Part shown: positions 3,771-62,199 of the stretch, piece after piece | Position numbering within the stretch: the first letter of the stretch is position 1 | Layout of the letters: the number at the start of each line of letters is the position of its first letter | Source of the DNA: Lepidostoma basale | Lineage: Eukaryota; Arthropoda; Insecta; Trichoptera; Lepidostomatidae | Assembly: GCA_022606425.2 (NCBI GenBank) | Contig: JAHDVF020000053.1 | Coordinates: 806,001 to 870,000, forward strand | Length of the DNA stretch: 64,000 nt | Reading direction: 5' to 3' | Notes under the pieces: generated by a model | The model's input: only the letters and a program-made list of their open reading frames with translations | What the model was told of the DNA's origin: nothing | Database searches by the model: none | Program-made: the position numbers and the translations under genes

Positions 3771-3817
3771 GTAGCACCTGATGATGCTAACATTGGTTAG
3801 CGAAAAAGCTGTCGCGA
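3771..3817 (+). ncRNA. Hammerhead-ribozyme-like motif, group g1
   Basis: CTGATGA (3778-3784) is followed by an extra T, a perfect 6-bp helix II GCTAAC/GTTAGC with loop ATTG (3786-3801), then GAAA (3802-3805), the self-complementary AGCT and cleavage triplet GTC ending at 3813. Relative to other g1 copies, the C after GAAA is A here. Helix I is weak (C-G, A.C, C-G). The tail aatcaatcgtgattttataacag resembles the other g1 tails. Confidence 0.6.
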
Positions 3818-3903
3818 TAATTTCATAGAAATTAAATCAATCGTGATTTTATAACAGGGTTTCAATTAAATAGTTAATAAAAAAGGTACGGCCATATATT
3901 TTT

Positions 3904-4412
3904 ATGTTTAAACAATTCATAAATTTTCATTTCTACAATATTTCTTATGAAAAGAGCAATCTCAGAGTAATTTCTCATATTGCAAAATATAGTATCAATA
4001 ATTTACAACAAGTCACCGCAGTTATAAAAAATATAGGTAATGAAAAACAAGCATTAAATATACATATAAATAATAACGTTTATAAACATTTTATCCATAG
4101 CATTACGTATATGTTCATATATGAGTATTTCAGTGAAGACGATATCGGAGAGATGGTATTCATTCTAGCAATGTTAGAATTTTACATACGAAAACCGTCC
4201 CATCGATATTTATGATGCCCATACTTGAGGTGATAGAATTTAATAACCCAGCTGTATGTGTTTCCTCGTCTGTACTAACATATCTGATATTAAATTATAA
4301 TAGTTTTCAAGATTATTGCTCAAGTATTATAAACTATCAAAACAAGCCGAGAAAAATAAGCTTACTTGTGAAAAAAAAGTGTTATATGAAAAGCTTTATG
4401 TGTATCTGTTGA
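3904..4412 (+). other. Two overlapping unassigned frames
   Basis: A 103-codon ATG frame (3904-4215) overlaps a 66-codon frame (4212-4412). Neither resembles a family I can name. They lie between two hammerhead-like motifs in the same orientation (3.78 and 4.42 kb), so they could be remnants of an element body. AT-rich chance frames are equally possible. Confidence 0.2.
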
Positions 4413-4413
4413 T

Positions 4414-4452
4414 CACAACAAGATGGCAGAAAGCTGCCGAAACTAGTTAAAA
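4414..4452 (+). repeat. Degenerate hammerhead-like motif, group g4
   Basis: Helix II GGCAG/CTGCC with loop AAAG (4425-4438) is followed by GAAA, self-complementary CTAG and TT. The first core strand is AACAAGA instead of CTGANGA, so three of the seven core bases are lost. It shares the extra T before helix II. Confidence 0.4.
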
Positions 4453-4577
4453 GTAAACATCAAATGGAAAACTAAATAAATGTTAAAAGGTTATTTATTG
4501 ATATTTTAGTTTATTTTCTTAATTGGAAAAGAACTTCTACCAAGAAATATAAATTAACAATATAAATATTGAAAGTA

Positions 4578-4898
4578 ATTTGAATACATATAACTACACT
4601 TCGTATTGATGGTAGAGTTTTGTAAAACTCCATTATTAATTTATAATAGTAAACACGATTGTTAAGTGGTTTTACTTGGATTTAATTTATATCAATGATA
4701 TAAATTGTGACAAATTCATTTCGCCTTGCGAGGGCATTCTCAAACATGAATTTGAGAATGAGAGTTTGAGAATGCCCTCGCAAGGCGAAACAAATTTGTC
4801 CCAATTTATATAAATTAAATTCAAGTAAAACCACTTAACAATCGTGTTTATTGTGATTACTTTTATAAATTACGAAATGTAGTTATATTTATTCAAAT
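4578..4898. repeat. 321-bp palindrome with two divergent g5 hammerhead-like motifs
   Basis: Inverted arms meet near 4750. The right motif (about 4764-4803, +) has TTGAGAA, an extra T, helix GCC/GGC, GAAA, the 8-base self-complementary CAAATTTG and TC. The left motif (about 4708-4755, -) reads the same pattern, with helix I TGT/ACA. Both arms share the two deviations from CTGANGA, so these are group features rather than private mutations. The outer tail attcaaatatgaacccacaa resembles the tail at 32.37 kb. Confidence 0.6.
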
Positions 4899-5663
4899 AT
4901 GAACCCACAACACAAAGTGAAGGTAAATATAGAAGAAAATGAGAGAAATTTATTTGTTTGTCAAGAAAATAAAAAGTACACAAAGTATTAATATTTGTAT
5001 ACATTGTACATACACTAGTTTAATACTCTTGCAAGGCGCAACTATAAATTAGGGAAGAGCACACAGAATAAGTGAAGCGTAAATATGCTTAAAGAAAATA
5101 AATGATTCTATACTCGTATGTAGGTAGCTCATTTGATAACGGATTTATGGGACATATTTAGGTTGGCAGAATAAGGGACACGGAAAGTTGATGTAATCGA
5201 GTGGAAATCCTCTCCAAGTAAGAACCGAATCCTTCTCGAGTACCTACCGCCTACCTAGAGACCGAGGGAATCTATTACGGAATTTCTGTTTTGTAAACTA
5301 AATAGAATGGAGGCGAAAAGTAAAAAAAACATATTTTTGAATGTCATTCGCTCTCTGCTAAAAATAAATATCTTTATACATAGCACACTGAATCAAAAAA
5401 AAAAATCTTAATTTATTTTAATCTCATATTTAAATATTAAAATCTAATAAAAATTTGAAGAAATGTTTTGAAGATTTTTTATTAGATTTCAAGAAAGTGC
5501 CATTTTTGCCTCACTAAGGCGCTGTTGTTTGAATACTCCTTAATTCTAATATTCCACTTGATAACGCCTTAGCAGTTCAAAATATTATATTCCCTTAGAA
5601 CATGAAAAAACTTGATTATTAAATACCATAATTTAATAATTTATTCCTTTCATTTTTCAAGCA
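4899..5663. other. AT-rich stretch, nothing recognised
   Basis: No coding frame or shared repeat seen apart from short poly(A)-like tracts. Confidence 0.4.
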
Positions 5664-7440: not shown

Positions 7441-7463
7441 ATAATTTTTTTTAATTACATAGG

Positions 7464-7498
7464 CATGTTTCGGACAACCAGTCCTTCTTCAGTGATAC
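7464..7498 (-). ncRNA. Hammerhead-ribozyme-like motif, group g2
   Basis: Minus strand: CTGAAGA, extra A, helix II GGAC/GTCC with a five-base loop, GAAA and self-complementary CATG. The expected TH is CC here (GCC instead of NUH), so cleavage would be lost. Flanks match other g2 copies (cttcagtgatacat, and tttttttatacattttg outside). Confidence 0.5.
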
Positions 7499-7615: not shown

Positions 7616-7850
7616 TTAGTAGATGGCGCTAGTGTAGATTGAACTAAAAAATGTGAAGTGTTTCCCAACATTGTACCATATATATCTATCTTCCAAAAAT
7701 TTGTCAGACGTGATGGTCGTAAGAAGGGCGGAATGGGGAATGTTGTATTACATAAAGCGTGCGCTTAACCCAACCAATGACAGGTCATAAGTCCTGTAAA
7801 CGCCTCGACCACCATATTCTGTTTCCAATTTGTCTCTAATAATTTCCAAT
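7616..7850 (+). repeat. Repeat E copy
   Basis: Dispersed non-coding repeat. Landmarks are agatggcgctagtgtagatt, a segment ending gcggaatggggaatgttgt, then caatgacaggtcataagtcc and a region normally ending near cgtctctattgagatacaat. Other copies are near 8690, 16750, 30655, 34350 and 63700. No coding capacity; class (SINE or MITE) undecided. Confidence 0.65.
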
Positions 7851-8109
7851 TTGTCTATAATAATTACATTTTTTTAATGTAAGTGTTGTGTAAACCAAGT
7901 GTATAAAAAAATAAAAAGAGAAATAAAGCAATTACAACACATGTATGGCGAATATGATAATATAAGAAAAATGTATATTGTAGGTACTAAAATTCTCTGT
8001 AATTTAAATCTTGCATCCCACGCCATCTACGCGCAGTTTTTTTAGACAGTTTAACTAACATACACATGGAGGATAAAAATGCTTTTTTTTTATATGTATT
8101 AACTGTGTA

Positions 8110-8470
8110 TTCAATGTATTCAACTAAACATATAAAGTTCATTGTTTTGAACGAAACACTATGATATTTCAACATAATTAACTGTTAAAATATAAAACGC
8201 TGTTTATGGTATCACATTGTTTTATTAATATTTTATTTTTCGCAACAGCTGTTTCGTCAACCGATTCCGACATCATCAAACGTTAGAATATTTTTTTCAA
8301 CTGTTTAAATAAATTTTTGTGAAACAGTCAATATTGGTTGATGAAACAGCTGTCGCGAAAAATAAAAAAAATAAAAAAAATTGTGATACCATAAACAGTG
8401 TTTTATATTTGTACAGTTAACTCAAAATATTATTAACTCGTGGTGTAACATTAAACAAAATTATTCAAAG
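8110..8470. repeat. Palindrome of two divergent g1 hammerhead-like arms
   Basis: Left arm on minus (8239-8282): TTGATGA, extra T, wobble-rich helix II, GAAA, CAGCTG, TT. Right arm on plus (about 8330-8380) keeps GAAACAGCTGTCGCG, but its first core strand is replaced by gtgaaacagtcaa. Tails on both sides carry the g1 signature ttgtgataccataaacag. Divergent, tails outward. Confidence 0.65.
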
Positions 8471-8845: not shown

Positions 8846-8856
8846 ATTATTTAGAT

Positions 8857-9005
8857 AATCAAATGATTTTACTGAAATCTCTTGATGGAAGTTCATTTAA
8901 ATGATAATATAATACAATTTTAATTTTATTCGTTCCACTTTTGTCTTTATTTTGAAAGCAACCGGTTTTGCAAGGCTCGCAGGCACCGACAGACTGGCCA
9001 TCGTA
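8857..9005 (-). repeat. Half g3 element (degenerate hammerhead-like arm)
   Basis: Shares tgattttactgaaatctctt with 61.97 kb. The minus strand reads CTGTCGG, extra T, GCCTG...CTTGC, AAAA, CCGG, TT, a decayed g3 motif. Only one arm is present. Confidence 0.5.
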
Positions 9006-9084: not shown

Positions 9085-9240
9085 AAATTTACCACTTCTA
9101 AACGTTTTCACTACTTCACTACTTCCCTTGTTAGTGCTACGTCTTCGCCCCATCTCTTATGTGGCCTTTCGACACATTTATTGTTTGACCATGGTCTCAA
9201 TTTGATTAATATGGGAGTCCGCCTATTATAATATTGTCTC
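9085..9240 (-). mobile_element. LINE-J C-terminal fragment, downstream part
   Basis: The minus strand reads RRTPILIKLRPWSNNKCVER then PHKRWGEDV, the RPxKRWxDD-type C-terminus of a non-LTR polyprotein. Its upstream part lies at 10586-10700, beyond the RTE insertion. The 48 bases at 9193-9240 are repeated at 10586-10633. Confidence 0.6.
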
Positions 9241-10585
9241 TTTTTTGTTTGGCCATGGTCCGCGAATGTGGAAATTATCGCGGAATAAAATGGCCATGGC
9301 AAGCAAATGTGGAAATTATCGCGGAATAAAATTGACCTCACACACCTTGAAGGTATGGGAAAAGATTATAAATGAGCGCCTCCAAAAGCTCTCCTCATTA
9401 ACAGAAAACCAATTTGGTTTTACGGGAGGTAAATCTACCACAGATGCCATTCAAGCTATAAGGATAGTGATGGAGAAATATAGAATAAACCGCAAAAATC
9501 TTCACCTACTGTTCATCGATTTGGAGAAGGCCTTTGACCGTGTCCCACGCAAGCTGGTGTGGCAGGCTGCGAGATTCCAGGGCATCCCGGAATACTACAT
9601 TCAACTGCTCCAAGACATGTACGAGTATTGCCAAATAACAACAAGAGTAAAAAGTCCCGCAGGCATCAGCGAACCATTTGCGGTGGAGGTCGGAGTCCAT
9701 CAGGGTTCAGCCCTGAGCCCTTTCCTTTTTAACATAGTTATGGACTACCTGACCAGGAATATACAGCAGTCTGTACCGTGGTGCATTCTCTACGCAGACG
9801 GCATAGTTTTGATTGCGGACTCGGCAGAACAATTGCAAGTTACATTGAATGAGTGGGCTGATGCCTTAGAGCGTAATGGACTACGCATTAGCAGGAGTAA
9901 AACCGAATATTTAGAATGTGAATATGAGGACATCACTACAGATTTGGCTCATGAAAACACCATTGGCAATACTCCAGTTAACAAGGTGTCCCAATTCAAG
10001 TATCTCGGGTCGGTCCTTACTGCGGACGCCAACGTTGACACTGATGTCAAACACAGGACAAACACCGCCTGGCCCAAGTGGAGGTCTCTATCAGGTGTCC
10101 TGTGTGATCCAAAAATTCCAATCAGAACTAAGGGCAGGGTCTACAAGACTGCAGAGAGGCCCGCCATGCTATATGGAGCAGAGTGCTGGACCAACAAAAA
10201 AGTCCACGAAAGTCGAGTCCACGCTGCCGAGATGAAAATGTTGAGGTGGGCTGGAGGCGTCACAAGGCTGGACCACGTTAGGAACGAATACGTGAGGGGT
10301 AGCTTTAAGGTTGCCCCAATAACGGAAAAATTAAGAGAATCTCGACTCCGGTGGTACGGTCATGTAATGCGAAGAGACAGCGAGCACATTGTCCAAAAAG
10401 CCCTCAGCATTCCCACAAAACCAAGAAGAAGAGGTCGCCCAATGGCAACATGGTGGGCCAACATGGAAAAGGAGCTCCAACGCGAGAACCTGACAGTGGA
10501 AATGAGTGAAAATAGGAAAGTTTGGCGTTTTCGTACGAGGAGGGCCGACCCCAGATGATGGGAAATGGCAAAGAGAAAGAAGAGA
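9241..10585 (+). mobile_element. 5'-truncated RTE-type LINE insertion
   Basis: Insert between 48-bp direct repeats (9193-9240 and 10586-10633, about 46/48 identical by eye) lying in an antisense LINE-J remnant, as expected for a target-site duplication. The 5' junction is complex: a 41-bp segment (9251-9291) is repeated in tandem (9292-9332) with about four differences. The 3' untranslated region is only about 27 bases of purine-rich DNA after the stop codon. Coding content is described separately. Confidence 0.75.
9305..10558 (+). pseudogene. RTE/BovB-like reverse transcriptase and C-terminal domain, inactivated
   Basis: An open frame runs from 9245 to 10558, but the ATG lies in 5' junction filler; genuine homology starts at GNYRGIKLTSH (about 9311). 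RT motifs in order: ENQFGFTGGKSTTDAI; motif A LFIDLEKAFDRV with its Asp at residue 92 of the frame; motif B GVHQGSALSPFLFN; motif C YADG at residues 183-186 (9791-9802); then FKYLGSVL. The C-terminal region has LYGAECWT, RLRWYGHVMRRD and GRPMATWW. Motif C should be YADD: codon 9800-9802 is GGC (Gly) where the second catalytic Asp is expected, so the enzyme should be dead although no stop interrupts it. The endonuclease domain and N-terminal RT part are missing through 5' truncation. Clade by motif style only. Confidence 0.85.
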
Positions 10586-12215: not shown

Positions 12216-13479
12216 GAAACAAATACTTTTCATTCTTCTGAGTGTTCTGACTGTTAACTACCACTTCATAATTTTTGTGTATATATTTTGATTTTTTTTA
12301 AATTAACGCCTTGATTTTAACATATAAAATATGTCAGTTTATGAGTAGGATATAATTAAAATGAATAAATAGTACAATGAAACAAATTGAATTGCAACAA
12401 ACAATAAAATACATATTTTGCATATAAAAGCAAATTCCACAGTTAAGTGATAATGTCACGTATAATTAAAAACTTGAGAATTATAAAGATTTTTGCATGA
12501 ACGTCGATATTATATCAGAATGGATCTTACTGGAAAGAAATATGCAAAACACCTGTGCCAAAGAATTGACTTTCGTGTTTTGTGTAACTGTTCATGTGGA
12601 AAAGAGAGTAGTTCAGCCAAATAGAGGGTCTTTTGGACTTACTGAGAGCCAGAAAAGCTACAATAACTACGAAATAAGCAAATGGGATATGAGTAGACTG
12701 TAAAAACTATTTTAAATAAATAGTTACTTGGTAGTGCTGTAGTTTGGTATAGTTTCTATTTCTATGGCCAAAGATTAATTAACAGCAGCTTGCTATAGTT
12801 TCTGTATCTATGGAAAAATATTGATTAACTGCAATATCGTGGAGTTTATATTTTTATGGCTTAATATTAATTAACTGCAGCTTGGTATAGTTTATATTGT
12901 TATAACCAAATATTATTTTACTGCAGCCTGGTATATTTTAAGTTAAGTACTGGGCGTTACTTTGTTTATATAAAATTTAAAGTCATAAAATAAACAATTT
13001 AAATTATGTATTCAAGTAAAATATTATAATAAAATCATTTTAACATGTAATATTAAAAATAATAAATAAATTAACTTTGTGTTAACGTAAACATAATTTG
13101 AACTAAATTTGCGTCTCTTAAGGTTCAAATATCTCTTATATAAAGAGTTTTTCCGATACCACTATAAAATATAGTGAAATTTAAAAAATATTTTTTGCGG
13201 AGAGTTGATTTTTTCTAAGTTATTAATATAATTAACTCAAAGCTTGATGTGCCGGTGACTGGTTATTAATTAACATGTCATGCTGTTAATAGCACAGTCG
13301 ACGCGTGTTGCAGTTGAAGCTTTTCGAAATAAAAAAAGCTTTGAGATGTTGAATGCAAAAATAAACACAGTTTTGATTCACTTTATTCAAAGCGGATTTA
13401 AGCAGTTTATCAAAGATTTGAATGTGTACACTCAGAAAATTGAAAGTAACTTTGTTAATAATCCACAAAATATTAAAAA
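12216..13479. other. AT-rich stretch, weak internal repeats
   Basis: Between 12720 and 12950 a decayed tandem unit of about 60 bases recurs four times, each with variants of cagcttggtatagtttctat. Short frames at 12497-12703 and 13280-13528 are unassigned. Confidence 0.35.
12722..12950. repeat. Degenerate approximately 60-bp tandem repeat, about 4 units
   Basis: Units carry variants of ttaattaactgcagcttggtatagttt...tctatggc (at about 12740, 12785, 12830 and 12885). Individual units differ by many substitutions. Non-coding. Confidence 0.45.
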
Positions 13480-13518
13480 ACACGATATGTTTCGGAGGAT
13501 ACCTCCATCTTCAGGTGT
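13480..13518 (-). ncRNA. Hammerhead-ribozyme-like motif with intact core
   Basis: Minus strand: helix I ACAC/GTGT (4 bp); CTGAAGA; extra T; helix II GGAGG/CCTCC with loop TAT; GAAA; CATA; TC. The cleavage triplet would be ATC, still NUH. In group g2 the last base of the tetramer is G (CATG), so this copy may have lost helix III symmetry by one change. It lies about 220 bases downstream, same strand, of the GIY-YIG fossil at 13.74-14.2 kb. Confidence 0.65.
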
Positions 13519-13739: not shown

Positions 13740-14200
13740 GATTAGGAACGGGAGCTTGGGAACTAAAAGTTGACAAAGTATTCAAGGAGAAACCAGTAAA
13801 TGGAGGAATCTGATTATTAATTATGTTTTCACACAATTTCACCGACTTGAGGATTTCTCAAGTTATAAGTTTGTTTAATCTATCGCTATTGTTAATTGTG
13901 TGTAGAAAGTTTGTGACATTTTTATCTATGGTCAAATTCAAGCAAATGGTTAGGTCATCTCAGAAAAAATCATATGTTTGGTGAAAGCTTGTTTGTGTTC
14001 GTTGATACGTGATTTAAATGTTCGTCCTGTTTTGTCTATGTAAAAAGCATCACAATCCTTACATTATATTTTATATATACCACTTTTTTACCAAATATCT
14101 GTTTTTTGTTTAGAATTTAATGTTTTCATAATTACAAGAGCAGAGTATAAACGATTTTTAGAAACAAAGTCTACGGTGAATTTTATATTCATAAAAAAAT
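13740..14200 (-). pseudogene. Penelope-like element GIY-YIG endonuclease fossil
   Basis: Read in pieces on the minus strand: SKQKTDIW-stop-KSGIYKI-stop-CKDCDAFYIDKTGRTF then SRINEHKQAF. The GIY (14079-14081 onward), the CxxC (14052-14063), the YIG equivalent (YID), the TGR and the R-x-x-x-H of the GIY-YIG nuclease are visible. A different frame then gives DKNVTNFLHTINNSDRLNKL and later QIPPFTGFSLNTLS, the usual C-terminal tail of Penelope-like proteins. Several stops and at least one frameshift make it a pseudogene; YID replaces YIG. No reverse transcriptase remains upstream. Confidence 0.75.
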
Positions 14201-15160: not shown

Positions 15161-15472
15161 CGTGTTTTGATATATAAAAATTTGTCAAATCATTTAAGCA
15201 ATGATTGATTATGTCAGTGTCTTCCTCGAATATCAAATAATAAATAAACTCACAATCGAGATCCTAATGCGTATGACTTTCGAATTAAAGTCAGTCGTAG
15301 CGGCAAATAATTATAATAATATAATTATTGATTTGGTAATCTTGAATGGTTTTAATCGAGGAAAACAGAAAACAATGTTATGAATCTCAATCATTTGAAT
15401 ATAAAAATCGGCAACATGAGGAGTGATATCAACATACGTGCATAATTGATAAGCTTTATGAATCTTAATAAA
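15161..15472. other. AT-rich stretch, nothing recognised
   Basis: A 60-codon frame at 15201-15383 has no support. Confidence 0.3.
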
Positions 15473-15690
15473 ATTATTACTGTTATAATTGTTGTCTCAC
15501 AATTTCTTTTTATTCACTGAGAGTGTCGCGACAGCTGTTGGCATCATCAGGTGTTACAATAAACTTAAATTGTGTTTATTGTAACACCCGATGATGCCAA
15601 CATCGGTTGACGAAACAGCTGCCGCAACTCTCCGTGAATAAAAATAAATTGTGATACTATAAGTGTTTTATATTTGAACAGTAATAATGT
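15473..15690. repeat. Palindrome of two divergent g1 hammerhead-like arms
   Basis: Right arm (+): CCGATGA (U to C at the second core base), extra T, GCCAAC/GTTGAC, GAAA, CAGCTG, then CC instead of TC. Left arm (-): intact CTGATGA, but helix II and GAAA are deleted so that TGCCAACAGCTGTC is continuous. Tails carry the g1 words gtgatactataagtg and gttgaagtatcgtag. Confidence 0.65.
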
Positions 15691-16744
15691 TGAAGTATCG
15701 TAGTGTTTCGGCCAAAACAACGGACTACTATTAAAATGTTTAAGGTAGAAGAGTGTGGTAAGCCTTCCTCTTCATATTCTTTCAAGAAAAGAACCTGATG
15801 GATTGTTAATTAGGCGCGTTCCCAGGCATTGCTCTAATTAAATTATAATGTTAATTTGTTTCAAATGTAAGAATATTTATATACAATGCAAATCATTCAT
15901 TTTATTGGTAATATTGTATTCATCAGAATATAGGTGCAAAAGCTATTTGTAAAGAAAGTGAAACTTCGAAGGCTTAAATTGGTTACGGTAACTGTATTGG
16001 CCGTTTTTTGATCCTTAACATTTTCATAGAACTTATATGTTTTGTGTTTTATTTCATAAGGTGTTAGTTTATTCAGGTAAATTGATAAAATGCTAGCTTT
16101 TTACATTGCTATATATCAATATTGCAGATGACAAAATAACGTACACCATGTCAGCGTCAACGTCATTTTATGTATTAAGTAAAATTGTTATAAATTTTTT
16201 TGATAGGATATTTTATTCATCTTTACGTTACTATGCATGACATCGTTTTGAATTTTACATGACTTAATGTCAACTAAATCTAGTCAATTCATAATTGAGA
16301 AGTCTCAAGCAATAAACTTTCATATCATGTTTCACGTTAATAAATAACAAATAAATTTCATATTATATAAATGTACATATAAATTAAAATGGAAAACTTA
16401 GAATAAAGATTTCCAAGAATATTAATTTTCTATGAAATTTCATAAAGTTTAAAACATTAATCATCCATCGTTGACAGCAATTTATCAAAATTTGATATGA
16501 GAAAACGAGGAAGAAATAACTTTAAGATTATTTATTAGTTTTCTAAAAATATTTGTGACGGGAACGAGGTCATGGTTTAGTATCAGAATTCTAGAAGAAG
16601 AAATCTATATGAATTAGTAATCAAAGACACTTTAAGGATATAAACTTTATTATTCGCTTGATAATTAATAAGAAAATATCCTTGTTATTAAGCTAGTAAT
16701 GATGGATACTAATTTATTTTTAATATTAATTATTGTATTTTTTT
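15691..16744. other. AT-rich stretch; tail of g1 element at the start
   Basis: 15691-15735 continues the g1 tail (gtgtttcggccaaaacaa, also near 8.15 and 52.97 kb). The rest shows nothing. Confidence 0.35.
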
Positions 16745-20098: not shown

Positions 20099-20138
20099 TG
20101 CCAACTAGTTTCGCTTGGACCCAAGCTTCATCAGGGCA
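20099..20138 (-). ncRNA. Hammerhead-ribozyme-like motif, complete fold (g4)
   Basis: The best copy in the window. On the minus strand: helix I TGCC/GGCA (4 bp); CTGATGA; extra A; helix II GCTTG/CAAGC with loop GGTC; GAAA; self-complementary CTAG; TT, giving a GTT cleavage triplet. All invariant core bases are present apart from the added A between the first core strand and helix II. Type I topology (open helix I). Confidence 0.7.
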
Positions 20139-20194
20139 GTATAACATTTTTTTGATTTGATTTTTAAACCACTTTAATTTATTGTTAAAAACAA

Positions 20195-20305
20195 CCATGT
20201 TCGCTCCTGCCGGAGCGACGTCAAGGTTAAAAAAATATATAAAAAAAGTTTAAAAAAAAGTTTATCCTCCTGCGGGAGCTTAATCGGTTGGTTTTATAAA
20301 AAAAA
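20195..20305. repeat. Pair of divergent, degenerate g4 hammerhead-like motifs
   Basis: Left (minus): TTGACGT then GCTCC/GGAGC, GAAC, CATG. Right (plus): cctcctgcgggagcttaatc, then CGGTTGG, alignable with the 28.15 kb motif. A/T-only spacer between them. Same divergent geometry as the larger palindromes. Confidence 0.45.
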
Positions 20306-21125
20306 AATGATGTAAAAACTAGTAAAAGTGCTATAATATTATTTTTAACAATAATATTTGACTTGTCGAAAGTAAAGATTGTCTATCCATTATAAACATG
20401 GTTCACTGAACAATCGTAGACAGTAATAAGTTTTAACTCTTAATGTAAATCTTTTTTTTCACACACGTTAAAAAATTCAAATTATTTTCCTTTTGTTTTC
20501 TGCACTACTGTCGTACAAAAATAATTAGAACAAAATTTTAAATAATTCAGACACTTTCAAGGGGCATGCAAGTATTTCCCTCTCACCCTCTTGTGTGCGA
20601 AACCTTTTCGTACTCTTGCTTGATGACATTCAGTTATTTTCTGTTTATATTATGATTTATATTCAACTGAATGAAATTACAACCCTCTTGCGGAACAAAT
20701 TGGTTTTCAAAAAATGTTTATTTTCATTTTTGGATTAATCAACTGATTGCCAAACATACAATTTACTAGAGCAATTTCGCAAAATTTGAAAATAATAACT
20801 TGCAAATAAATAAACCCAACCCATCCTAAAGTAACCAGTTAAAATTAGCTTAACAACCTTAATTTATAACGATTATACTCAAAGGGGTAGTTGTGTTTGG
20901 TTGACCCTATAATAAATTATATACACATTACACTTTAATGTATTTGTGAATAATATGTGTAAATATGTCACATTTGATGTAAAAGCTATTTGTATATATA
21001 TTGTATATAATAATAATAAATAATTTGAAAGATAAAAATTTTGTAACACTGTTAATATTCAAAACAAAAGACTATCCAAAAAGGTAAGATGGCGGTGCAA
21101 ACTAGTGTTCTTATGCCGACTCTTA
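20306..21125. other. AT-rich stretch, nothing recognised
   Basis: No frame above background and no repeat partner noticed. Confidence 0.35.
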
Positions 21126-21405: not shown

Positions 21406-21429
21406 ATATACAAATAAAAAAATAAAAAA

Positions 21430-28140: not shown

Positions 28141-28184
28141 AACCCTGACGAAGCTCCGGCGGGAGCGAAACCGTTTGGTTGTTG
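28141..28184 (+). ncRNA. Hammerhead-ribozyme-like motif with intact core (g4)
   Basis: CTGACGA (28145-28151); extra A; helix II GCTCC/GGAGC with loop GGCG; GAAA (28167-28170); helix III ACC/GGT closed by GTTT; cleavage triplet GTT ending 28180. Helix I is imperfect (C-G, C.T, A-T). Here helix III can close within one molecule, unlike the palindromic words of other groups. The tail gttgaaataaatagggtggt contains AATAAA. Confidence 0.7.
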
Positions 28185-29708: not shown

Positions 29709-29744
29709 TTACAGAACAACGCCAACTTAGGAACATTCAATTTA

Positions 29745-30860: not shown

Positions 30861-31119
30861 TGAATAAAAAGTTTATAAAACGAACTTTGAACATATTGCG
30901 TATTACAAAAATTAAATAATTAATACGAATGAAAACGTATGTAAGTATCTAGATGTCTAATAACACTTTATGGAAATCACATTATAAGATATTATATCTT
31001 AATACGAAGAAACATTCATTCCCATAAAATGTAATTGAAATAGACGTTTTTATTTCGTTTTGATTAACTAATTTAATTAATACGGAATTTCTTCTTTATT
31101 CGCCATACTTTGTGTTGTA
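30861..31119. other. AT-rich stretch, nothing recognised
   Basis: No frame or repeat partner. Confidence 0.35.
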
Positions 31120-31450
31120 GATGCTTTATTTCTCTTTTTCTTTATTATATACTTTGTATGAACAACACTTACATTAAAAAAATTAAAATTACTTAGACAT
31201 ATTTCGGACAACCACTCCTTTTTCAGTGATACATATTATAAATATACACATTAAAAATATTATAAAATTGTTTGCATGATCTGACAGATGTTATAAATAT
31301 TTTATAACAGATCTCTATAACATCTGTCAGATCATGTAAATAATATTATAATTTTTTTAAATATGTATATTTATTATATGTATCACTGAAGAAGGACTGG
31401 TTGTCTGAAACATGTCTATGTAATTAAAAAAAAATTATGTAAGTTTTGTA
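31120..31450. repeat. Palindrome of two divergent g2 hammerhead-like motifs
   Basis: Right motif (+, 31381-31420): CTGAAGA (31386-31392), extra A, GGAC/GTCT, GAAA, CATG, TC. Left motif (-): CTGAAAA, GGAGTGGTTGTCC, GAAA, TATG, TC. Outer tails contain ttatatactttgtatgaaca-type sequence shared with copies at 40.1, 44.9 and 50.5 kb. Arms about 150 bases. Confidence 0.6.
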
Positions 31451-31673
31451 TGCACAAATTATATAAAAATAGAGAAATTTAATACGGAGTTTTAAATCAT
31501 TGTTAAAGAAACAATCAATAAAAATTAAATATTTTTTAAACTCTTAACGTAACCTTTTTTTACCAATATGCATTTAAGACTGTGTGCGTGGATTGGGTCA
31601 ACCACGTACTTCGATTAAGAGAAGTCTATGTCATGAAAACTGTACGCGTTAGTTTAAGGTTACATCTTATTAA

Positions 31674-32673
31674 GGGGTTATACGCTGACCGATTTTTTTT
31701 TCGTAATGTACATACTCCTATATTCATTCATATACACAGACATTTTCATGTCAATCCGATTAACATTCTCGAAGTTACTCGCATATTTGTACTTTACGTC
31801 TTACGTTTCGGAACGTTCGAAAGCATTTAGCAATGCATTTGAAATTTCGAACACGTTTTTCTCAAAATTGTGTTTGTTAAGTCGGTGAGAAATATTTCGT
31901 GTGGAAACGGCTAAACCGATCAGTCTCATATGTTATATTATTATAAAATAAACATTTTATTAATGTTCAAAGGTTATTTCTACCGGTAAATATTTTCTTT
32001 TTTATAAACAATTTAAGGCCGAAATTTTTATCTATTGAACAAAACAATTTTTTTTTTGAGAAGAAACCATTTTGTTGAAAAATAGTATTTTGCTTATTCC
32101 TTCGATTGAATGCTAGATAATATCTTATATTAATTAAACTTTTTTGAGTAACTTTTTGAAAACATTGTATTTTGACAAAAAAATATTTGCACCTTTCATA
32201 AACATGTTTCGGGACACAGTATTCCTAATGTTTAAATAAATGAATTGTTCTTTATGTTTACAATTCTGTAATTCATACACTGAATAAGGGAAGTCTGTGT
32301 TCCGAAACATGTTTGTAAAAGGTGCAAATAAGTGTTGTGATAATACAACATTTACAAAAAGTTATTCAAATGTGAATCCATAACAAAAAGTGATGGCGAA
32401 TATAGAATAATCTTTTTGTTTTTTCATTTTAGATGATCCAATCTATTTCTAGATCTATCTATCTATAATCCAATCTAGATCAATTTAGACATATCATGCT
32501 CATTGAGAGACGCCTTTTTAGAGAAGCTCCCGGAGATCGATTATAGCAGCTTTAAAAATAAATTTTCTTACAAATATTTAATTTGAAATAAAGGTGAAAT
32601 TTACAAAAAAATATTATAAATTTTGTTAAACAATTTTTTTTTCGGCCTTCTGGTTGCGTACGAGTATAACCCC
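31674..32673. mobile_element. 1000-bp TTAA-flanked element (piggyBac-type MITE candidate)
   Basis: TTAA at 31670-31673 and 32674-32677 brackets termini GGGGTTATAC and GTATAACCCC (perfect 10-bp inverted ends, then looser similarity). Exact length 1000. No transposase frame. TTAA duplication with G/C-starting ends is the signature of piggyBac-like elements. A g2 palindrome lies inside. Confidence 0.6.
32170..32400. repeat. Palindrome of two divergent g2-like motifs inside the TTAA element
   Basis: Right arm (+): CTGAATA, extra A, GGGAA/TTCC, GAAA, CATG, TT. Left arm (-): hairpin remnant, then CCCGAAACATG, TT. Tails tttgtaaaaggtgcaaataa (right) and the inverse on the left are near-identical. 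Continues to ttcaaatgtgaatccataac, as at 4.89 kb. Confidence 0.55.
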
Positions 32674-39059: not shown

Positions 39060-39197
39060 ATTACTTTGTAATTGATAAATTAAAATTGCATATCAGACAT
39101 ATTTCGGACAACCGGTCCTGCTTCAGTGATACATATTATAAAGATACATATTTAAAATATTATAATATTGTTTACAAATACGATCAGTTTTGTCAGT
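39060..39197 (-). repeat. Half g2 element
   Basis: Minus: CTGAAGC, extra A, GGAC/GTCC, GAAA, TATG, TC. The last core A of the first strand is C. The inner body (gtttacaaatacgatcagtt) is shared with 50.6 kb. Confidence 0.5.
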
Positions 39198-44929: not shown

Positions 44930-45060
44930 CTTTGTATATACTCGTACAACACAAACATTAAAAATTACATGTTTCGGACAACCGGTCCTTCTTCAGTGAT
45001 ATTATAAAGATACATTTTTAAAATATTATAAAATTGTTTACGAATTCTCTAGTCTAGAAG
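44930..45060 (-). ncRNA. Hammerhead-ribozyme-like motif with intact core (g2), with tail
   Basis: Minus, 45001-44966: CTGAAGA, extra A, GGAC/GTCC with loop CGGTT, GAAA, CATG, TA (triplet GTA, allowed as NUH). Helix I is not preserved. The tail includes ttatatactttgtatatact (antisense of other g2 tails). Body to 45050 shared with 39.1 kb. Confidence 0.55.
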
Positions 45061-47800: not shown

Positions 47801-47802
47801 TT

Positions 47803-49075: not shown

Positions 49076-49145
49076 GTACTTTATTTTACGCAACAGCTGC
49101 TTCATCAACGTATGTTGACATCATCAGGTGTTACAATAATATATC
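49076..49145 (-). ncRNA. Hammerhead-ribozyme-like motif, group g1
   Basis: Minus, 49130-49088: CTGATGA, extra T, helix II GTCAAC/GTTGAT (6 bp with one G.T), loop ATAC, GAAG (last A to G), CAGCTG, TT, then GCG. Single arm; no mirrored partner here. Confidence 0.5.
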
Positions 49146-51185: not shown

Positions 51186-51260
51186 GAGATGCGAGGCCAG
51201 AAGATGGCCGCGGACAGCCGAAACCGGTCGAAGCCATTAATCTAAGTGAAATACTTAAAT
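51186..51260 (+). repeat. Hammerhead-like motif, group g3-like
   Basis: CAGAAGA (U4 to A), extra T, GGC...GCC hairpin, GAAA, CCGG, TC, then gaagcc. GC-rich and distinct from the g1/g2 copies. One core substitution predicts loss of activity. Confidence 0.4.
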
Positions 51261-52333
51261 TTTTGTATTTACATTATTAACTTCTGTCCAAATAAAACTG
51301 TCATTTGTTTCCAAAATACCATTTAACTATGTGTTATCATAATTCATAAAAATATATATGTTTATTAAATATTATCATAATTCATAAAAATGTATGTTTT
51401 AAAATATATTTCCATTTCGTTATCGATATTGGTCCAGATGATGGTCTTGTACAGTTGTTTTCATACACGATGTACCCTAATGATTAAATAATAACTATTT
51501 TTAACCTTAATTCAGATCTGGTAGCATCTACTAATAATGAACTTTAAACAAGAAATATCAAATAAAAACAATAATATTTTAGAGATATTAATATTAATTG
51601 AAATGTGTACCGCAGTGATATCCTGAATCACGCCTACGCAGATCCACTAAATGAGATTTGAATAGTGTCTGAAGCCTAGAAAAAGTTAAGTAAAATATAT
51701 TTCCTTGGGTACAAAACGCTAGGCATAACAATGAATCCTTCCATTCAGGCGAATAATATAAGGATTTCGTCTGGAATTTTCTTTAAAGCCAGTATTTTGA
51801 ATAAACTCTAGACGTAATACAATATTATGGGGATACTTTTTGATATTACCGACGTGGTCTCTACATCAGCCAAAGCTGGTTCCATAAGATATTTAATAAG
51901 CGAAGGAAACTTTCAGTGACGTACAAGTACGTGATGATTTTTTACAGATTATTGAAATACAATAATACTTTGTATATACCAATAACATTTTTGTAGGAAA
52001 ACACACAGTGATTATTAATACATATACAAATAAACAAACATACAGTTAATTAAAGACAAATTAAAGACATAAAAGTTTCATTAAAACAGTCAATAAAGAC
52101 ATAAAAGGTTTACCTGAAGCTGTAGCCAGGTCGCAAAAGTCTAAAACGAGTAAATTTACTATTTTAATAGAAATAGATTGTTATCTACGCGAAATATATA
52201 TATTTTTGTGAATGAAAAAAAAATGTATATAAAACACATAAAAAAAAAACTTAATTTGTTTCAACGAATCAACCGGTTTCGCAAAATGAAATTCGTAGAA
52301 TTCGGTTGTCCACCAGAACATATTTTTTACTCT
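51261..52333. other. AT-rich stretch, nothing recognised
   Basis: No supported frame or shared repeat. Confidence 0.35.
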
Positions 52334-52480
52334 ATTTTTTATTTTTCGCGACAGCTGTTCCCTCAACCTTTATTGACATCATCAGGTGTTACAATGATGA
52401 TGTCAACAAAGGTTGACATAGCAGCTGTCACGGAAAATAAAAAATAAAAATTGTGATACATAAACAGAGTTTTATAATTT
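52334..52480. repeat. Compact palindrome of two divergent g1 motifs
   Basis: Left (minus): CTGATGA (52385-52379), extra T, GTCAA/TTGA hairpin, GGAA, CAGCTG, TC, GCG. Right (plus): ATGATGA, TGTCAAC/GTTGACA, then atag, CAGCTG, TC. Spacer only about 10 bases. Tails gaaaataaaaaataaaa and gtgatacataaacagag on the right. Confidence 0.6.
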
Positions 52481-52735
52481 AACAAAATAAATATTATGAT
52501 TTGAAGAATACAAAAAGATACATTTTTGTCTATCACTATAAAAAGTATCTGAAATTTTGAATATTGCGTTTTTGAGGAGGCTTATATCATATTTATTTTT
52601 ATGATTCAACATGTCTTGTATTATTATGGGAATATAAAAATGCAAGGAGTGTCTAGATTGCGTTAATCTCATGTTATAACAAGGCGTAATATTTTTAACC
52701 AAATATTAACTACTTATTTTTAAAGTTATGATATA
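52481..52735 (-). other. Unassigned 76-codon minus frame
   Basis: 52472-52702 encodes NITPCYNMRLTQSRHSLHFY and later NAIFKISDTFYSD. It may be a retroelement C-terminus but is not matched within the window. Confidence 0.2.
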
Positions 52736-52985
52736 TCTATTGATTTGATTTCTATGTAATTGCCGTGACAGCTGTTTCACCAATCGGGTTTAGCATCGCC
52801 AGGTAAAACAATCAAAATTGTAATATCTGCTTCATCAGGTGTTACAGACAACAGTTGACTGTAACATATGATAATGCCAAGATCAGTTGGCGGAAAAGTT
52901 TAAAAAATAAATTGTGATATTTATAACAGTTTTCATATTAAACGGTTAATAATGTTGAAGTAACGTTGTGTTTTCTTCAAAACAA
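52736..52985. repeat. Two divergent, decayed g1 motifs
   Basis: Left (minus): CTGGCGA, extra T, GCTAA/TTGGT, GAAA, CAGCTG, TC. Right (plus): ATGATAA, extra T, GCCAA/TTGGC, GGAA. Tail gttgaagtaacgttgtgttt as in other g1 copies. Confidence 0.5.
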
Positions 52986-53445
52986 TGAATTGTATTTGTT
53001 TTAGAGTTTCACAGATTTTTAATCAGACAGGTATGACATTATTATTATCTTTGACATAAAAAACTGTTATCACAGTGAATAATAACGAAAAAAATACAAT
53101 TTCACCCGACACCCTTGGTAGTAAGTACTTTCAAAACTTTAACAGGTTAATGAAAACTTCAAATATTTTATATATTATAGATTTCTAGATACAGTGTTTC
53201 ACTTATGATTGACATTCATATAATGATTTTTGACGTATTTAGAAAAGGAAATATTTTGAATAATTTTAAAAATTAAATATTCATTTTGTATGAATGCACG
53301 AAAAGTGTTTTCTTCAAAGACATGATCCTTTATTTTATTCTAATGTTGTAGTTACGCTGACATTTTTTTTGTGCATTCATCTTTACACGAGAACTTCTAT
53401 AATAACTATTAGAATGAAATTTTTTCGGAAATGTGTTTGAGGAGT
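52986..53445. other. AT-rich stretch, nothing recognised
   Basis: No supported frame or repeat. Confidence 0.35.
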
Positions 53446-57220: not shown

Positions 57221-59284
57221 ATTCCGATAGACTAATATGAATTTAGACATTTTGTCGAGGATGAAAATGATTGGAGTCTGTATTTAAGCTTCATCAAACC
57301 GCATTATCCCGACGACAAATGACAAGAAAATCGGCTTTTAGCAACAATGTATTCATTTGGAAATTTGGATCTATTTTTCTTTTAGAATAAGTTTTTTTTG
57401 TATTGTATTTAGAACGTTAAAAGTTTACTTTTCCTTTAATATATGGTTTATGACTCTAAAGACTCTTTGCCGAAAACTTTAACTAATACTTTTCTGCACG
57501 ATTCTTTGATGAGTCAAATAAACATGTGTAATAGCAAGAAGAAACACAAAAGGGTTCCCACCACATACCCGAGGCTGTTATAGGGCGCAGCGGCACCCTT
57601 TCGTCAGCCTCGCTCGTACACTTTCAAGGCCTGTCATGTCCATCCGGGACATACATTTAATTTACGCAAATACAATGGGATACCAGGCCACATTTACTCT
57701 ACTTTGTATTTCCTTCTGTTGTCCCGCACTTCCACAAGTAAACTACTATTTATTTAAAAATATATAATAGAATACTCTATTTTGTAAGATTGTTATTATT
57801 TCTATATTTTTTTTAAATAAACATGTGTAATGTCTAAAAAAAATTGTGACAAGTAGGTAAAAAACAATAAGTTCTCGTATATCTGATTTCACATAAGGCA
57901 TATTTCAGTAGGCAGGCCGATGTTTTGAGTTTCTTATTTTATTTTATTGGATGTGTTCGGTATTTTCTGTTCTCATTCTAGTTTGAATAAATTACTATGC
58001 AGCTGTGTATATTTTCATATTGTTGCTCCACCAGCCACGTAATCGGTTTTTCGACTTTGCGATGGAGTGTGAATTCTTTCGGAGATTAGTATAATGTGTT
58101 TTATGTATGAATACTCCAAACAGCGAAGTATTTTAAATCCAGTTAATATTATCTTCTCTAAGTCAGGATGACTTAACGTTCACCCGTGACATTGTATATT
58201 AAAAATATCAATTTGTTCATAATAATACGATACTTACATATTGTTTCTTGAACTATACTTCTAAATGCAAAGTAGTCATATTAGTCAATTAAAAAAATAT
58301 TAAACAATACTATTATAGAATTTGACGATGTTTCAGATCAGAAGTCACCTAATAAAAAAACAAATTTCTAAAAGCAATAATTCTCAAATAATTAATACAA
58401 ATAATATCATTGGTTTTCTAAAAGTTTTGTCATATTTTAAGGGAGTGTCATGTTTTGCTATCTTCTGGTAAAAGCGAGCCTAATTCTATCAACCAACTTA
58501 AACCAGTCGGAGCTAAAAAATCAAAGGGTTATTATACAAAAATCAAAGGGTTATATATAAAAAAGTAAACGTAATATATATTATACGTTTTTGAATTTAT
58601 TAATTCAATTAAATAGTTCATTGTTTTGTCTGAAACCCTATGATACTTCACCATTATTAAATACTAAATTATAAAATGCTGTTTTTATGGTAACACAAAA
58701 TAAAATGTCGCGACAAATATTTTTTTTAAATTGTGATACAATTAAAACTGCGTTTTATTATTAAACAGTTAATTAATTAAATTATTTATTTTCTTTACTT
58801 ACGATGAACTTATACTAAGAAGTTTTAATTAACAACATCAATGCTTAGATACAAGTTTCAAACGATTCGCTTTTCATAAATTCCAATCAGTTTAAAGTTT
58901 TTGTAACTTTATATTTTAACTAAATATGTAAAAAGTATAAAATGTAAAGCTTTTGTTTGCATTTACAGTACGCCAAGAACTAGGAAAAACATTTTTCTTT
59001 GTCAGGGGGTATTTTGTGTCATTTATAACTGTGTTTTCATAGACAAACTACTTTTCTAAGTGTCTCGTCTGTGATTTACGGGGAGAGAACGTAAACCCAA
59101 AACGGGTTCAACCGTTTCCTTCAATTAGTCTAAAGAAATTCGCGGAATCCTTTTCGAATTACGTTTACAAAACCAAGTGTTCATTTTTTTTACAAAGTGT
59201 TATTGTGTTTTCTATAAATTATTATTTCGAGCCGAAAAAAAAACAAAATAATGCCTAACCAAACGACGGCCTACACCGCAAATT

Positions 59285-59290: not shown

Positions 59291-59650
<360 letters not shown>

Positions 59651-59805: not shown

Positions 59806-60242
59806 TAACTAACTAAATAATCATCACACTTTTCTTTCCTGACAATTTTTTCTCGCTTCTTCAACATTCATACATCGTGTCATGCACGCGCGTAAATTTC
59901 TCTCACTCCTCACGTGGCCGATATTTAATATTTGATTTATTTGATCGTGCTACGTTTTCCTCGGTCTTCCCCTATTTCGAGTTCCATTTACATCGTTAAA
60001 ATATACTTTTTTACCATTCTTTCTTCATTAATTTTTTCCATGTGTCCAAACCATCCTAATGATCCTTTCATTACTTTGTTCATTATACCATCATTCGCAC
60101 CGCATTTACTTCTTATATTATCATTCGACACTATCATACACAGAGTATCTACACATTTGTCTAAGAGATCTAATTTATACTGCAATTATTCTACTTTAAT
60201 TCTTCTTTTGCCAGTTTTATGCTTCGCTTCCATACACAAGGG
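59806..60242 (-). mobile_element. LINE-A fragment
   Basis: (CTAA)n tail joined by deletion to antisense RRACMTRCMNVEEARE, the GRPRKT region, MNKVMKGSLGWFGHMEKINE and EAWNWQK-like, ending at ttccatacacaagggtaa. Confidence 0.7.
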
Positions 60243-60331
60243 TAATAATAATTTATTGTAAGTAATAATTGAAAATATTACTAAATTTAGCTTTATTGTA
60301 AATTTGGTACAAATACATTTTTATCGATATA

Positions 60332-61653
60332 CGAGGTCTGTTCAAAAAGTATCGCGAATTTTATATTTTTTCAAAAAGTATTTATTTATTCATGAATATC
60401 TATTTTGTCCCCATCAAAGTAATTCCCCTCGGATATAATACATTTATGCCAACGTTTTTTCCAATCCTCGAAGCACTTAAGAAAATCATTTTTTGTGATC
60501 TTGTTCAGCTCCTCCTTCGATGCCGTCTTTATCTCCTCAATCGTGGCGTAGCGTCGTCCTTTCATGGGCCTCTTCAGTTTTGGAAACAGGAAAAAGTCAC
60601 AGGGGGCCAGGTCTGAGGAATACGGTGGCTGCGGCACCATTACTGTGTTGTTTTTGGCCAAATATTCGCGCACAAGCAACGATGTGTGAGCAGGGGCGTT
60701 ATCATGGGGCAAAAGCCAGTTTTTGTTCTTCCACAAATCCGGGCGTTTCTGGCGGATTGCTTCGCGCAAATTGCGCATAACTTGCAGGTAATATTCCTTA
60801 TTGACCGTACTACCCTGTGGCAAGAACTCATGATGCACCACGCCCCTGCAATCGAAGAAAACTGTGAGCAAAACCTTCACGTTCGACCGAACTTGGCGCG
60901 CTTTTTTTGGTCTTGGCTCATGCGGCAGCTTCCATTGGGATGATTGAGCTTTGGTTTCCACGTCATAACCATAAACCCATGATTCGTCACTAGTTATGAC
61001 CCTCTGGAGCACATTTGGGTCGTCACGGACCGAGTCCAACATCTCCTGAGCAATGTTAACGCGATGCTGTTTTTGGTCGAAATTGAGCAATTTTGGCACG
61101 AATTTCGCGGCGACCCGACTCATGCCCAAATCATTGGTTAAAATCGAATGGCACGAGCCAATCGATATGTTTAGGTCCTCAGCAACTTCTCTAACGGTGA
61201 TTCGACGATTGGCTAATACTATTTTCTTCACTTTATCAATGTTTTCGTCTGTTGTTGACGTGCTCGGGCGTCCGGCACGCTCTTCGTCGTTCATATCTTC
61301 TCGGCCCTCTGAGAACATTTTGTACCACCGATAAACGTTGCTTTGGTCCAAGGTAGCTTCACCATATGCCACAGTCAACATTCGAAATGCGTCCGCGCAC
61401 TTTATTTTGTTTTTCACACAAAATTTGATACAGATTCTTTGATACATTTTTTGGAATAGGCAAAAATCGAAGACGAGCCAAAACACATCCAAGCAAAACA
61501 GCTGTCAAAAATTAACTAAACATTCAAAATGGCCGACCTTGTCAGCATAAGTAAGGGACATAAGTATCAACATAACGCTACAAAAAAATCAAAAATCAAA
61601 TATACGTAGCCAGCGGAAATTCAAAATTCGCGATACTTTTTGAACAGACCTCG
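60332..61653. mobile_element. mariner transposon, full length
   Basis: 1322 bp, flanked by TA on both sides (60330-60331 and 61654-61655). Terminal inverted repeats are identical over 31 bp, starting cgaggtctgttcaaaaagta and ending gcgaatttt. Encodes one transposase on the minus strand. Full length plus perfect ends point to a young insertion. Confidence 0.95.
60386..61447 (-). CDS. mariner transposase (DD34D)
   Basis: Catalyses cut-and-paste transposition into TA sites, acting in the nucleus. The frame opens at 61492, but the ATG at 61447 (MYQRICIKFCV) gives 353 residues, the usual size; the upstream 15 codons are probably untranslated. N-terminal helix-turn-helix DNA-binding half: ADAFRMLTVAYGEATLDQSN, then ERAGRPSTS, DENIDKVKKIV, ITVREVAEDLNISIGSCHSI. 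Catalytic half: TSDESWVYGYD (Asp 154), LLPHDNAPAHTSLL (Asp 249), YSSDLAPCDFFLFPKLK (Asp 284); 34 residues separate the last two Asp, as in mariner. No stop or frameshift. Deviations from common motifs: FVPKLL for WVPHEL and YSSDL for YSPDL; they may lower activity. Subfamily perhaps vertumnana-like, by residue style only. Confidence 0.93.
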   Translation of the reverse strand: MYQRICIKFCVKNKIKCADAFRMLTVAYGEATLDQSNVYRWYKMFSEGREDMNDEERAGRPSTSTTDENIDKVKKIVLANRRITVREVAEDLNISIGSCHSILTNDLGMSRVAAKFVPKLLNFDQKQHRVNIAQEMLDSVRDDPNVLQRVITSDESWVYGYDVETKAQSSQWKLPHEPRPKKARQVRSNVKVLLTVFFDCRGVVHHEFLPQGSTVNKEYYLQVMRNLREAIRQKRPDLWKNKNWLLPHDNAPAHTSLLVREYLAKNNTVMVPQPPYSSDLAPCDFFLFPKLKRPMKGRRYATIEEIKTASKEELNKITKNDFLKCFEDWKKRWHKCIISEGNYFDGDKIDIHE

Positions 61654-61661
61654 TATGTAAA

Positions 61662-61914
61662 GATTCTAACGATGTCAATGGAACCAGAAATAGAGGAAGA
61701 CCGAGGAAAACGTGGCACGATCAAATAAATCAAATATTGAATGTCGGCCATGTGAGGAGTTAGAAAAATCGACGCGCGTGCATGACACGATGCATGAATG
61801 TTGAGGAAGCGAGAGAAATATGTCAGGAAAGAAAAGTGTGGCAGTCCATTCTTGCTGCCTACTCCTTCGGGGAGATGGCGTGATTGTTAGTTAGTTAGTT
61901 AGTTAGTTAGTTTA
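61662..61914 (+). mobile_element. LINE-A 3' fragment with long (GTTA)n tail
   Basis: VNGTRNRGRPRKTWHDQINQ, RRACMTRCMNVEEAREI, LAAYSFGEMA-stop, hairpin, then six GTTA units. It starts 8 bases right of the mariner, so the original left part may have been interrupted or lost. Confidence 0.75.
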
Positions 61915-62017
61915 TTATATTTTGCAATAGAAAACTAAAAAAATCATATCTCGTTAAAATTAAAAAAATCAAATGATTTTACTGAAATCTCTTGATGGAA
62001 GTTCAATTTAAATAATG

Positions 62018-62199
62018 ATTAAATAAAACGATGTTTTTTAACTATTTCCACTTTTGTCTTTATTTAGACAGCGACCGGTTTCGCCAGGCTTGCTGGCATC
62101 GACAGATCAGTCTGTCGATGCCAGCGAGCCTGGCGAAACCGGTCGCTGTCTAAATAAAGACAAAAGTGGAAGTAGTTAAAAAACATCGTTTTATTTAAT
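62018..62199. repeat. 182-bp near-perfect palindrome, two divergent g3 motifs
   Basis: Arms 62018-62106 and 62111-62199 (89 bases each, two mismatches) around the spacer TCAG. Right motif (+, 62108-62148): helix I CAGT/GCTG, CTGTCGA, extra T, helix II GCCAG/CTGGC, loop CGAGC, GAAA, CCGG, TC. Left motif (-) is the mirror. The fourth core base is U instead of A in every g3 copy that can be read. The tail ctaaataaagacaaaagtgg contains AATAAA. Confidence 0.75.

Follow-up and report, generated by a model that had tools for sequence, protein, structure and literature searches.

A 64,000-nucleotide stretch of the genome of the trichopteran Lepidostoma basale (assembly GCA_022606425.2, contig JAHDVF020000053.1, positions 806,001 to 870,000; hereafter the window) very probably holds remnants from a dozen or so families of Penelope-like retrotransposons (Penelope-like elements, PLEs), mostly the 3' ends of their pseudo-long terminal repeats (pseudo-LTRs). 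The surviving unit consists of a minimal type I hammerhead ribozyme motif and the 60-100 nt or so downstream of it; some copies continue into a tail of about 40 nt. An earlier note on this DNA had proposed a link between its hammerhead-like motifs and PLEs. This lead is supported independently of the ribozyme by copies joined head to head, by a tail on one side of such pairs, by a common 3' end point past which the tailed copies continue, by a 10-bp duplication flanking one pair and by one probable remnant of a GIY-YIG endonuclease.

Minimal hammerhead motifs

Motifs were counted with an exact-core descriptor (CTGANGA, a spacer of 0-1 base, a helix II of at least 4 bp and GAAA) and ranked by a composite score built from the core, a helix II of no more than 24 nt, GAAA, a palindromic word, TH and helix I. 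Dinucleotide shuffles of the window (20 for the descriptor and 100 for the composite score) and the reversed window served as nulls. This descriptor score with shuffles replaced a covariance model; a MAFFT alignment of five motifs misplaced one core. The exact core is matched 8 times, compared with a shuffle mean of 0.15 (maximum 1). One of the eight, at 37369 on the plus strand, has too long a helix II and looks like a chance match, and 7 motifs combine an exact core with a short helix II and GAAA. Up to one core mismatch gives 19 matches against a shuffle mean of 4.65 (maximum 8). At a composite score of at least 20, there are 15 motifs, located at 3.8, 7.48, 8.25, 13.5, 20.1, 28.15, 31.4, 32.3, 39.1, 44.98, 49.1, 51.2, 52.8 and 62.1 kb (two), compared with a mean of 0.68 in shuffles (maximum 4) and 1 in the reversed window. 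At a score of at least 17, the number is 22 against a shuffle mean of 3.94 (maximum 11) and 5 in the reversed window.

Part of the weaker signal is indeed due to a loose motif being matched by chance in AT-rich DNA. When two core mismatches are allowed, 77 matches are found against 38.8 in shuffles (maximum 53), so about half of them are due to chance, and the loci at 4.4, 4.75 and 29.5 kb have a hairpin and GAAA but at least three core mismatches at the placed core, which is no longer recognisable. However, the excess at the score of 20 and the family alignments, which reach well past the motif, refute chance for the 15 motifs as a set and make it an extremely improbable explanation, although one of them could still be a chance match at an expected 0.68.

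The 15 motifs fall into eight sequence families, and about twelve by our count when degenerate ones are included, which bears out the earlier suggestion of at least six sequence groups. The earlier figure of about 20 motifs stands in part: 15 are recognisable, at 14 of the 23 loci listed there, but the figure includes decayed copies, and one copy is intact throughout. The nine other loci score below 20. Six of these are decayed relatives: those at 15.6 and 52.4 kb are kin of the 3.8/49.1-kb family, that at 31.2 kb (score 17.5) is kin of the 31.4-kb motif, that at 20.2 kb of the 28.1-kb motif, and those at 23.6 and 45.35 kb of one another. The remaining three (4.4, 4.75 and 29.5 kb) are weak look-alikes. 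Further copies outside that list lie at 1.68, 7.85, 8.99, 40.1, 50.6, 54.3 and 58.65 kb, that at 54.3 kb being the least certain; those at 7.85, 40.1 and 58.65 kb have no hammerhead. The head-to-head pairing described below is likewise absent from the earlier note. The 15 motifs are as follows.

7462..7492, minus strand: family A minimal hammerhead (7.49 kb); score 22, exact core, U16.1 and helix I gone
31386..31416, plus strand: family A minimal hammerhead (31.4 kb), right arm of a pair; score 25.5, exact core, helix I gone
39092..39130, minus strand: family A minimal hammerhead (39.1 kb); score 23, helix I of 7 bp retained, A9 changed to C
44966..44996, minus strand: family A minimal hammerhead (45.0 kb); score 25, exact core, helix I gone
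32276-32317, plus strand: family B hammerhead (32.3 kb); score 24.5, G8 changed to T
13480..13518, minus strand: family D minimal hammerhead (13.5 kb); score 27.5, exact core, helix II 5 bp, helix I 4 bp, non-palindromic word CATA
3778..3813, plus strand: family F minimal hammerhead (3.78 kb); score 26, exact core, weak helix I
8244-8279, minus strand: family F hammerhead (8.28 kb); score 24.5
49092..49127, minus strand: family F minimal hammerhead (49.1 kb); score 25.5, exact core, GAAG in place of GAAA
52767-52802, minus strand: family F motif (52.80 kb); score 21.5
62073-62105, minus strand: family G motif (62.1 kb); score 26.5, A6 changed to T
62112-62144, plus strand: family G motif (62.1 kb); score 23.5, A6 changed to T
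51198..51229, plus strand: family H minimal hammerhead (51.2 kb), single copy; score 20.5, lowest of the 15
20099..20138, minus strand: family I minimal hammerhead (20.1 kb); score 30.5, best in the window
28141..28180, plus strand: family J minimal hammerhead (28.1 kb); score 28.5, exact core, helix II 5 bp, helix I 6 bp, non-palindromic word CCGT

All 15 motifs have one base between A9 and helix II, and the composite scoring accepted a spacer of zero or one base without preference. A fully self-complementary word of 4 or 6 nt precedes U16.1 in 10 of the 15. Helix I reaches at least 4 bp in six motifs (13.5, 20.1, 28.1, 32.3, 39.1 and the plus-strand motif at 62.1 kb). None of the 15 forms a helix III hairpin of at least 4 bp (A15.1-U16.1 included) together with a helix I of more than 2 bp; the 28.1-kb motif could form a shorter alternative helix III hairpin at the cost of helix I. 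Helix III is reduced in these motifs, a trait shared with minimal hammerheads of the Penelope type. Some 150,000 variants of this kind, with a diminished stem III, were reportedly described by Lunse in 2017. With one representative for each of the eight families, whose sequences differ, 31 of the 32 helix II cells are paired, the closing G-C pair being fixed and each of the next three positions showing two to four standard pair types; since the motifs were selected by helix II, this pairing illustrates covariation rather than testing it.

The 20.1-kb motif is the sole fully intact copy, with CTGATGA, a 1-nt spacer, a helix II of 5 bp, GAAA, the palindrome CTAG, TT and a helix I of 4 bp. Its predicted double hammerhead has an energy of -24.4 kcal/mol compared with 2 x -11.6 kcal/mol for the monomers, the best cofold being another structure at -35.6 kcal/mol. 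Most copies appear to be dead or inactive. An Rfam hammerhead match, which the earlier note had proposed as a check, was not obtained: the whole window gave no match at the gathering score and no hammerhead family at E <= 10, and neither did the motifs at 20.1, 28.1, 13.5 and 39.1 kb searched singly (four of the 15) match a hammerhead family at E <= 10. This negative result fits minimal rather than canonical hammerheads. Among other Rfam candidates, weak STnc400 matches at 62 kb coincide with the inverted repeat there, and matches to mir-5014, mir-488 and mir-31_2 fall on the pairs at 32.26, 4.75 and 15.57 kb; these were rejected.

Head-to-head pairs, tails and flanking duplications

Ten loci align as inverted head-to-head pairs with their 5' sides inward, that at 52.85 kb over a short stretch only, and two further pairs lie at 58.65 and 20.2 kb. 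No open reading frame (ORF) lies between the arms. The pairs and their principal parts are as follows.

31087..31478: family A pseudo-LTR pair; left arm 31087-31295 (minus strand) tailed, right arm 31316-31478 (plus strand) untailed
31087..31123, minus strand: AC-rich tail that forms the 3' end of that pair's left arm, homologous to the tails of families B and C
31077..31086: 10-bp target-site duplication, left copy
31479..31488: 10-bp target-site duplication, right copy
32143..32410: family B pair; plus-strand arm tailed
4585..4938: family C pair; plus-strand arm tailed, with hairpin-GAAA-CAAATTTG-TC on that arm and the core lost
8136..8422: family F pair; minus-strand arm tailed
15470..15726: family F pair; plus-strand arm tailed, both motifs degenerate
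52333..52446: family F pair; no tail detected on either arm
52704..52989: divergent family F copies; plus-strand arm tailed, pair alignment short
58615..58773 (bounds approximate): family F pair without a hammerhead; minus-strand arm tailed
61967..62210: family G pair; arms about 95% alike, minus-strand arm tailed
1590..1816: family G pair with degenerate motifs, absent from the earlier list; plus-strand arm tailed
20155..20348: degenerate pair, kin of the 28.1-kb copy (family J); no family tail known

In family A, five untailed copies stop within 4 nt (reference positions 172-175) and three run on into the tail, and the 5' ends differ between copies. Exactly one arm is tailed in 9 of the 11 scored pairs (8.3, 15.57, 52.85, 58.65, 62.1, 1.68, 31.3, 32.26 and 4.75 kb); the other two, at 52.39 kb and at 20.2 kb, have none, and no tail is known for the family of the latter. 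The pairs at 29.5 and 23.6 kb were left out of the scoring. At a tail rate of 0.45 per arm, one-sided tails in 9 of 10 pairs (20.2 kb left out) have a chance probability of 0.01. Without the three pairs that supplied the reference tails, 6 of 7 are one-tailed (p 0.06). The left arm at 4.75 kb carries a diverged tail-like stretch, and when that pair is not counted as a success the ratio becomes 5 of 7 (p 0.22). The one-tail rule is suggestive only.

These pairs could be regarded as foldback DNA transposons or miniature inverted-repeat transposable elements that carry the motif in their terminal inverted repeats by happenstance. Inverted arms, the duplication flanking the 31.3-kb pair and the lack of an ORF between arms would all suit such elements. 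However, one arm runs about 40 nt past the other in 9 of the 11 scored pairs, unlike terminal repeats, unpaired copies agree in their 3' end but not in their 5' ends, and the inner ends are unequal between the arms of several pairs, so that we regard this origin as very improbable. By eye, the inner ends are nearly symmetric at 62.1, 31.3, 15.57 and 4.75 kb and unequal at 1.68, 8.3, 32.26 and 52.39 kb.

The tail of family A matches those of family B (22) and family C (21), compared with a 99% random-placement null of 15. This bears on the earlier proposal that the recurring arrangement reflects a shared fold rather than simple descent. The proposal is only partly borne out. Between groups, helix II sequences differ while the pairing is kept, in motifs that were selected by that helix. 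However, copies within a group are related by descent, and even across groups families A, B and C have a homologous tail in common. All families may descend from one ancient pseudo-LTR.

Two features of the arms were observed in passing. By eye, ACAACAC in the family A tail could pair with GTGTTGT about 40 nt upstream to form an AC-rich stem-loop (31087-31478, 40104-40203 and 7848-7976). The family G arms on the plus strand at 62.1 kb and on the minus strand at 1.68 and 8.99 kb (62007-62210, 1590-1767 and 8849-8993), three of the four aligned to the minus-strand arm at 62.1 kb, share a start point one base ahead of the core, as though the 5' end of the template RNA were fixed at that position.

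At the 31.3-kb pair, the 10-bp sequence TTAATACGGA abuts both outer ends, 31087 of the tailed arm and 31478 of the untailed arm. This duplication is clear, with a chance probability of 0.005, which is optimistic since the ends were chosen after viewing the sequences. The duplication test covered 10 pairs, of which those at 62.1 and 29.5 kb were marginal. On nine pairs with adjusted ends, including 58.65 kb but neither 29.5 nor 52.39 kb, it gave the same outcome: p is 0.005 at 31.3 kb, 0.04 at 62.1 kb and at least 0.11 at the other seven. An 86-bp duplication with 97% matches (29537-29716) adjoins the 29.5-kb pair.

Coding remnants and neighbouring features

Upstream of the 13.5-kb hammerhead and on the same strand lies one probable coding remnant of the kind carried by Penelope elements.

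13953..14078, minus strand: probable broken GIY-YIG endonuclease remnant with stop codons

A tblastn search with a probe not drawn from a database gave E 2.6e-11 for this remnant, compared with 0.003 for the best of 10 shuffles, and Pfam GIY-YIG scored 19 bits (E 0.0018), under the cut-off of 22.6. An endonuclease followed by a 3' pseudo-LTR at this locus would correspond to the Penelope order. PDB matches of the endonuclease piece were at chance level only and were rejected.

The copies could also be metazoan non-LTR retrozymes, small non-coding tandem-repeat retroelements that carry canonical type I hammerheads and pass through circular RNAs as intermediates. The type I hammerheads, the low G+C content and the lack of recognised coding capacity beside most copies are what such elements would show. 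However, portions of the retrozyme literature describe them as tandem repeats of about 150-450 bp (PMC7229834), and none of the 20 tandem-repeat (TRF) rows contains any of the 15 motifs. The copies are single or head to head, and the motifs at 20.1 and 20.2 kb, although co-directional, belong to different families. In addition, helix III is reduced and Rfam finds no match, whereas canonical helices would be expected. Retrozymes are a poor explanation, to which we assign a very low probability.

Several observations weigh against descent from PLEs. The endonuclease remnant is one short piece, with the strong score coming from the probe just described and a Pfam score below the cut-off, and a protein homologue search with it found none. 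No PLE reverse transcriptase was seen among the 21 ORFs of at least 110 aa in the window (by eye; 4 were run against Pfam), and reverse transcriptase probes of the same provenance scored no better than shuffles. Outside searches were also empty: scans of viral contigs with two exact family patterns gave no match. Helix I has only 0-3 bp in 9 of the 15 motifs. In 7 of the 10 pairs tested, flanking duplications did not exceed chance, and the same holds at 58.65 kb. The copies are fragments, so a missing reverse transcriptase is compatible with descent from PLEs, and they are filed here as PLE-derived remnants.

Other mobile elements and repeats in the window are as follows.

9206-10555, plus strand: reverse transcriptase ORF, 450 aa; RVT_1 E 1.6e-37, LINE-like and not Penelope
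60389-61504, minus strand: mariner-like transposase ORF, 372 aa; Transposase_1 E 5.7e-19 and Mos1 HTH domain (Pfam), possibly a young copy
63371-63407, minus strand: tRNA-like B-box stretch, perhaps a tRNA-derived short interspersed element
12737-12940: 46-bp tandem repeat, 4.4 copies
59299-59649: TA microsatellite, about 350 bp

Among the best 120 of 4230 relatives of the LINE-like reverse transcriptase, the highest identity is 64% (Plutella xylostella), and the top E-value belongs to a catfish protein. Together with the mariner-like transposase, this ORF is in keeping with a eukaryotic and probably insect origin of the DNA. Many fragments of one LINE-like family occur on both strands at 5841, 11058, 21434, 22802, 26032, 34670, 35446, 36473, 46789, 50429, 53444, 54591, 61815 and elsewhere. 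Many stand beside GTTA repeats, and some have open frames with RWFGHMERM, one of which was searched against Pfam with no match. The B-box stretch gave a weak mascRNA match (25.3 bits) and no tRNA gene by ARAGORN.

Proposed insertion pathway and known Penelope-like systems

We infer dimeric cleavage, its possible role in insertion and the mode of pair formation as follows. RNA would be transcribed from tandem copies. Two hammerheads would then pair through the self-complementary word of helix III, complete each other's core and cut after UH. Reverse transcriptase would start internally, at either of two sites immediately 3' of the ribozyme, thereby producing tailed or untailed ends. Early stops would leave 5'-truncated inserts, which would often be joined head to head between short target duplications. 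The ribozyme step has evidence against it in portions of a study of the lizard Anolis carolinensis (PMC11167929), in which the hammerhead cut only with the PLE protein present, insertion in vitro was normal for hammerhead mutants and RNA-seq showed no ends at the hammerhead site.

PLE integration is unsettled, and one-tailed head-to-head pairs are footprints that bear on two models. One is self-priming on an antisense template, as set out in passages of PMC3846280. The other, which may be derived from passages of PMC11167929, involves two start sites and priming by both strands of the cut target. The symmetry of the inner ends does not decide between them. A bolder proposal, which we consider unlikely, treats the head-to-head units of about 200-400 bp, which lack an ORF, as the usual insertion product rather than mere debris. 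On this view, reverse transcription of the same ribozyme-bearing RNA would be primed by both cut strands of the target, each arm beginning at a different one of the two internal start sites, and the units would be a non-autonomous form of PLE in their own right. If true, two-strand priming would account for the presence of a tail on one arm only, as well as the tail common to families. Counts in a genome rich in such pairs would put both priming models to the test. The extra base that regularly follows A9 and the cross-family tail would also be useful for a better search model of minimal hammerheads, which Rfam misses here.

The hammerheads of PLEs are described, in portions of PMC6155905 and PMC7761336, as minimal, usually without helix III, arranged in tandem and possibly cleaving as dimers. 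The motifs in the window resemble the minimal, dimeric type I hammerheads of PLEs (Cervera & De la Pena 2014; Lunse, Weinberg & Breaker 2017; as relayed in reviews) in their type I order, reduced helix III and position at PLE pseudo-LTR ends, and differ in that most copies are decayed and perhaps also in the extra base after A9 of all 15. With metazoan retrozymes, as depicted in passages of PMC7229834, the copies share type I hammerheads in non-coding retroelements, but the tandem repeats and canonical helices of retrozymes are not seen here. High numbers of motifs are not unprecedented, since passages of the same source report more than 6000 minimal or canonical type I motifs in a coral genome, which is a count and not a density comparison.

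The arrangement of the pairs has a close counterpart in the Penelope families of the rotifer Adineta vaga, for which portions of PMC3846280 describe inverted pseudo-LTRs with a 31-bp tail on one of them and target-site duplications of 8-10 bp in some copies, head to head being the most frequent inverted arrangement. The likeness extends to the head-to-head order and the tail on one side, and probably to duplications in some copies only and a GIY-YIG endonuclease. Unlike the copies in the window, which have no ORF between the arms, the typical Adineta vaga copy has an 842-aa ORF, and the available text of that paper gave no hits for 'hammerhead'. In the Poseidon element (PAc) of Anolis carolinensis, according to passages of PMC11167929, the hammerhead lies in the pseudo-LTR, both target strands are cut and extended, and the tail is the stretch between two internal reverse transcriptase start sites in an AC-rich stem-loop. 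The hammerhead in the pseudo-LTR and the tail just 3' of it are common to PAc and the copies described here; the AC-rich tail and the AC-rich stem-loop of PAc are alike by description only. The motif and its link to PLEs are already known, and the window is a rich local example, ordinary in kind, of which the one-sided tails are the most interesting part.

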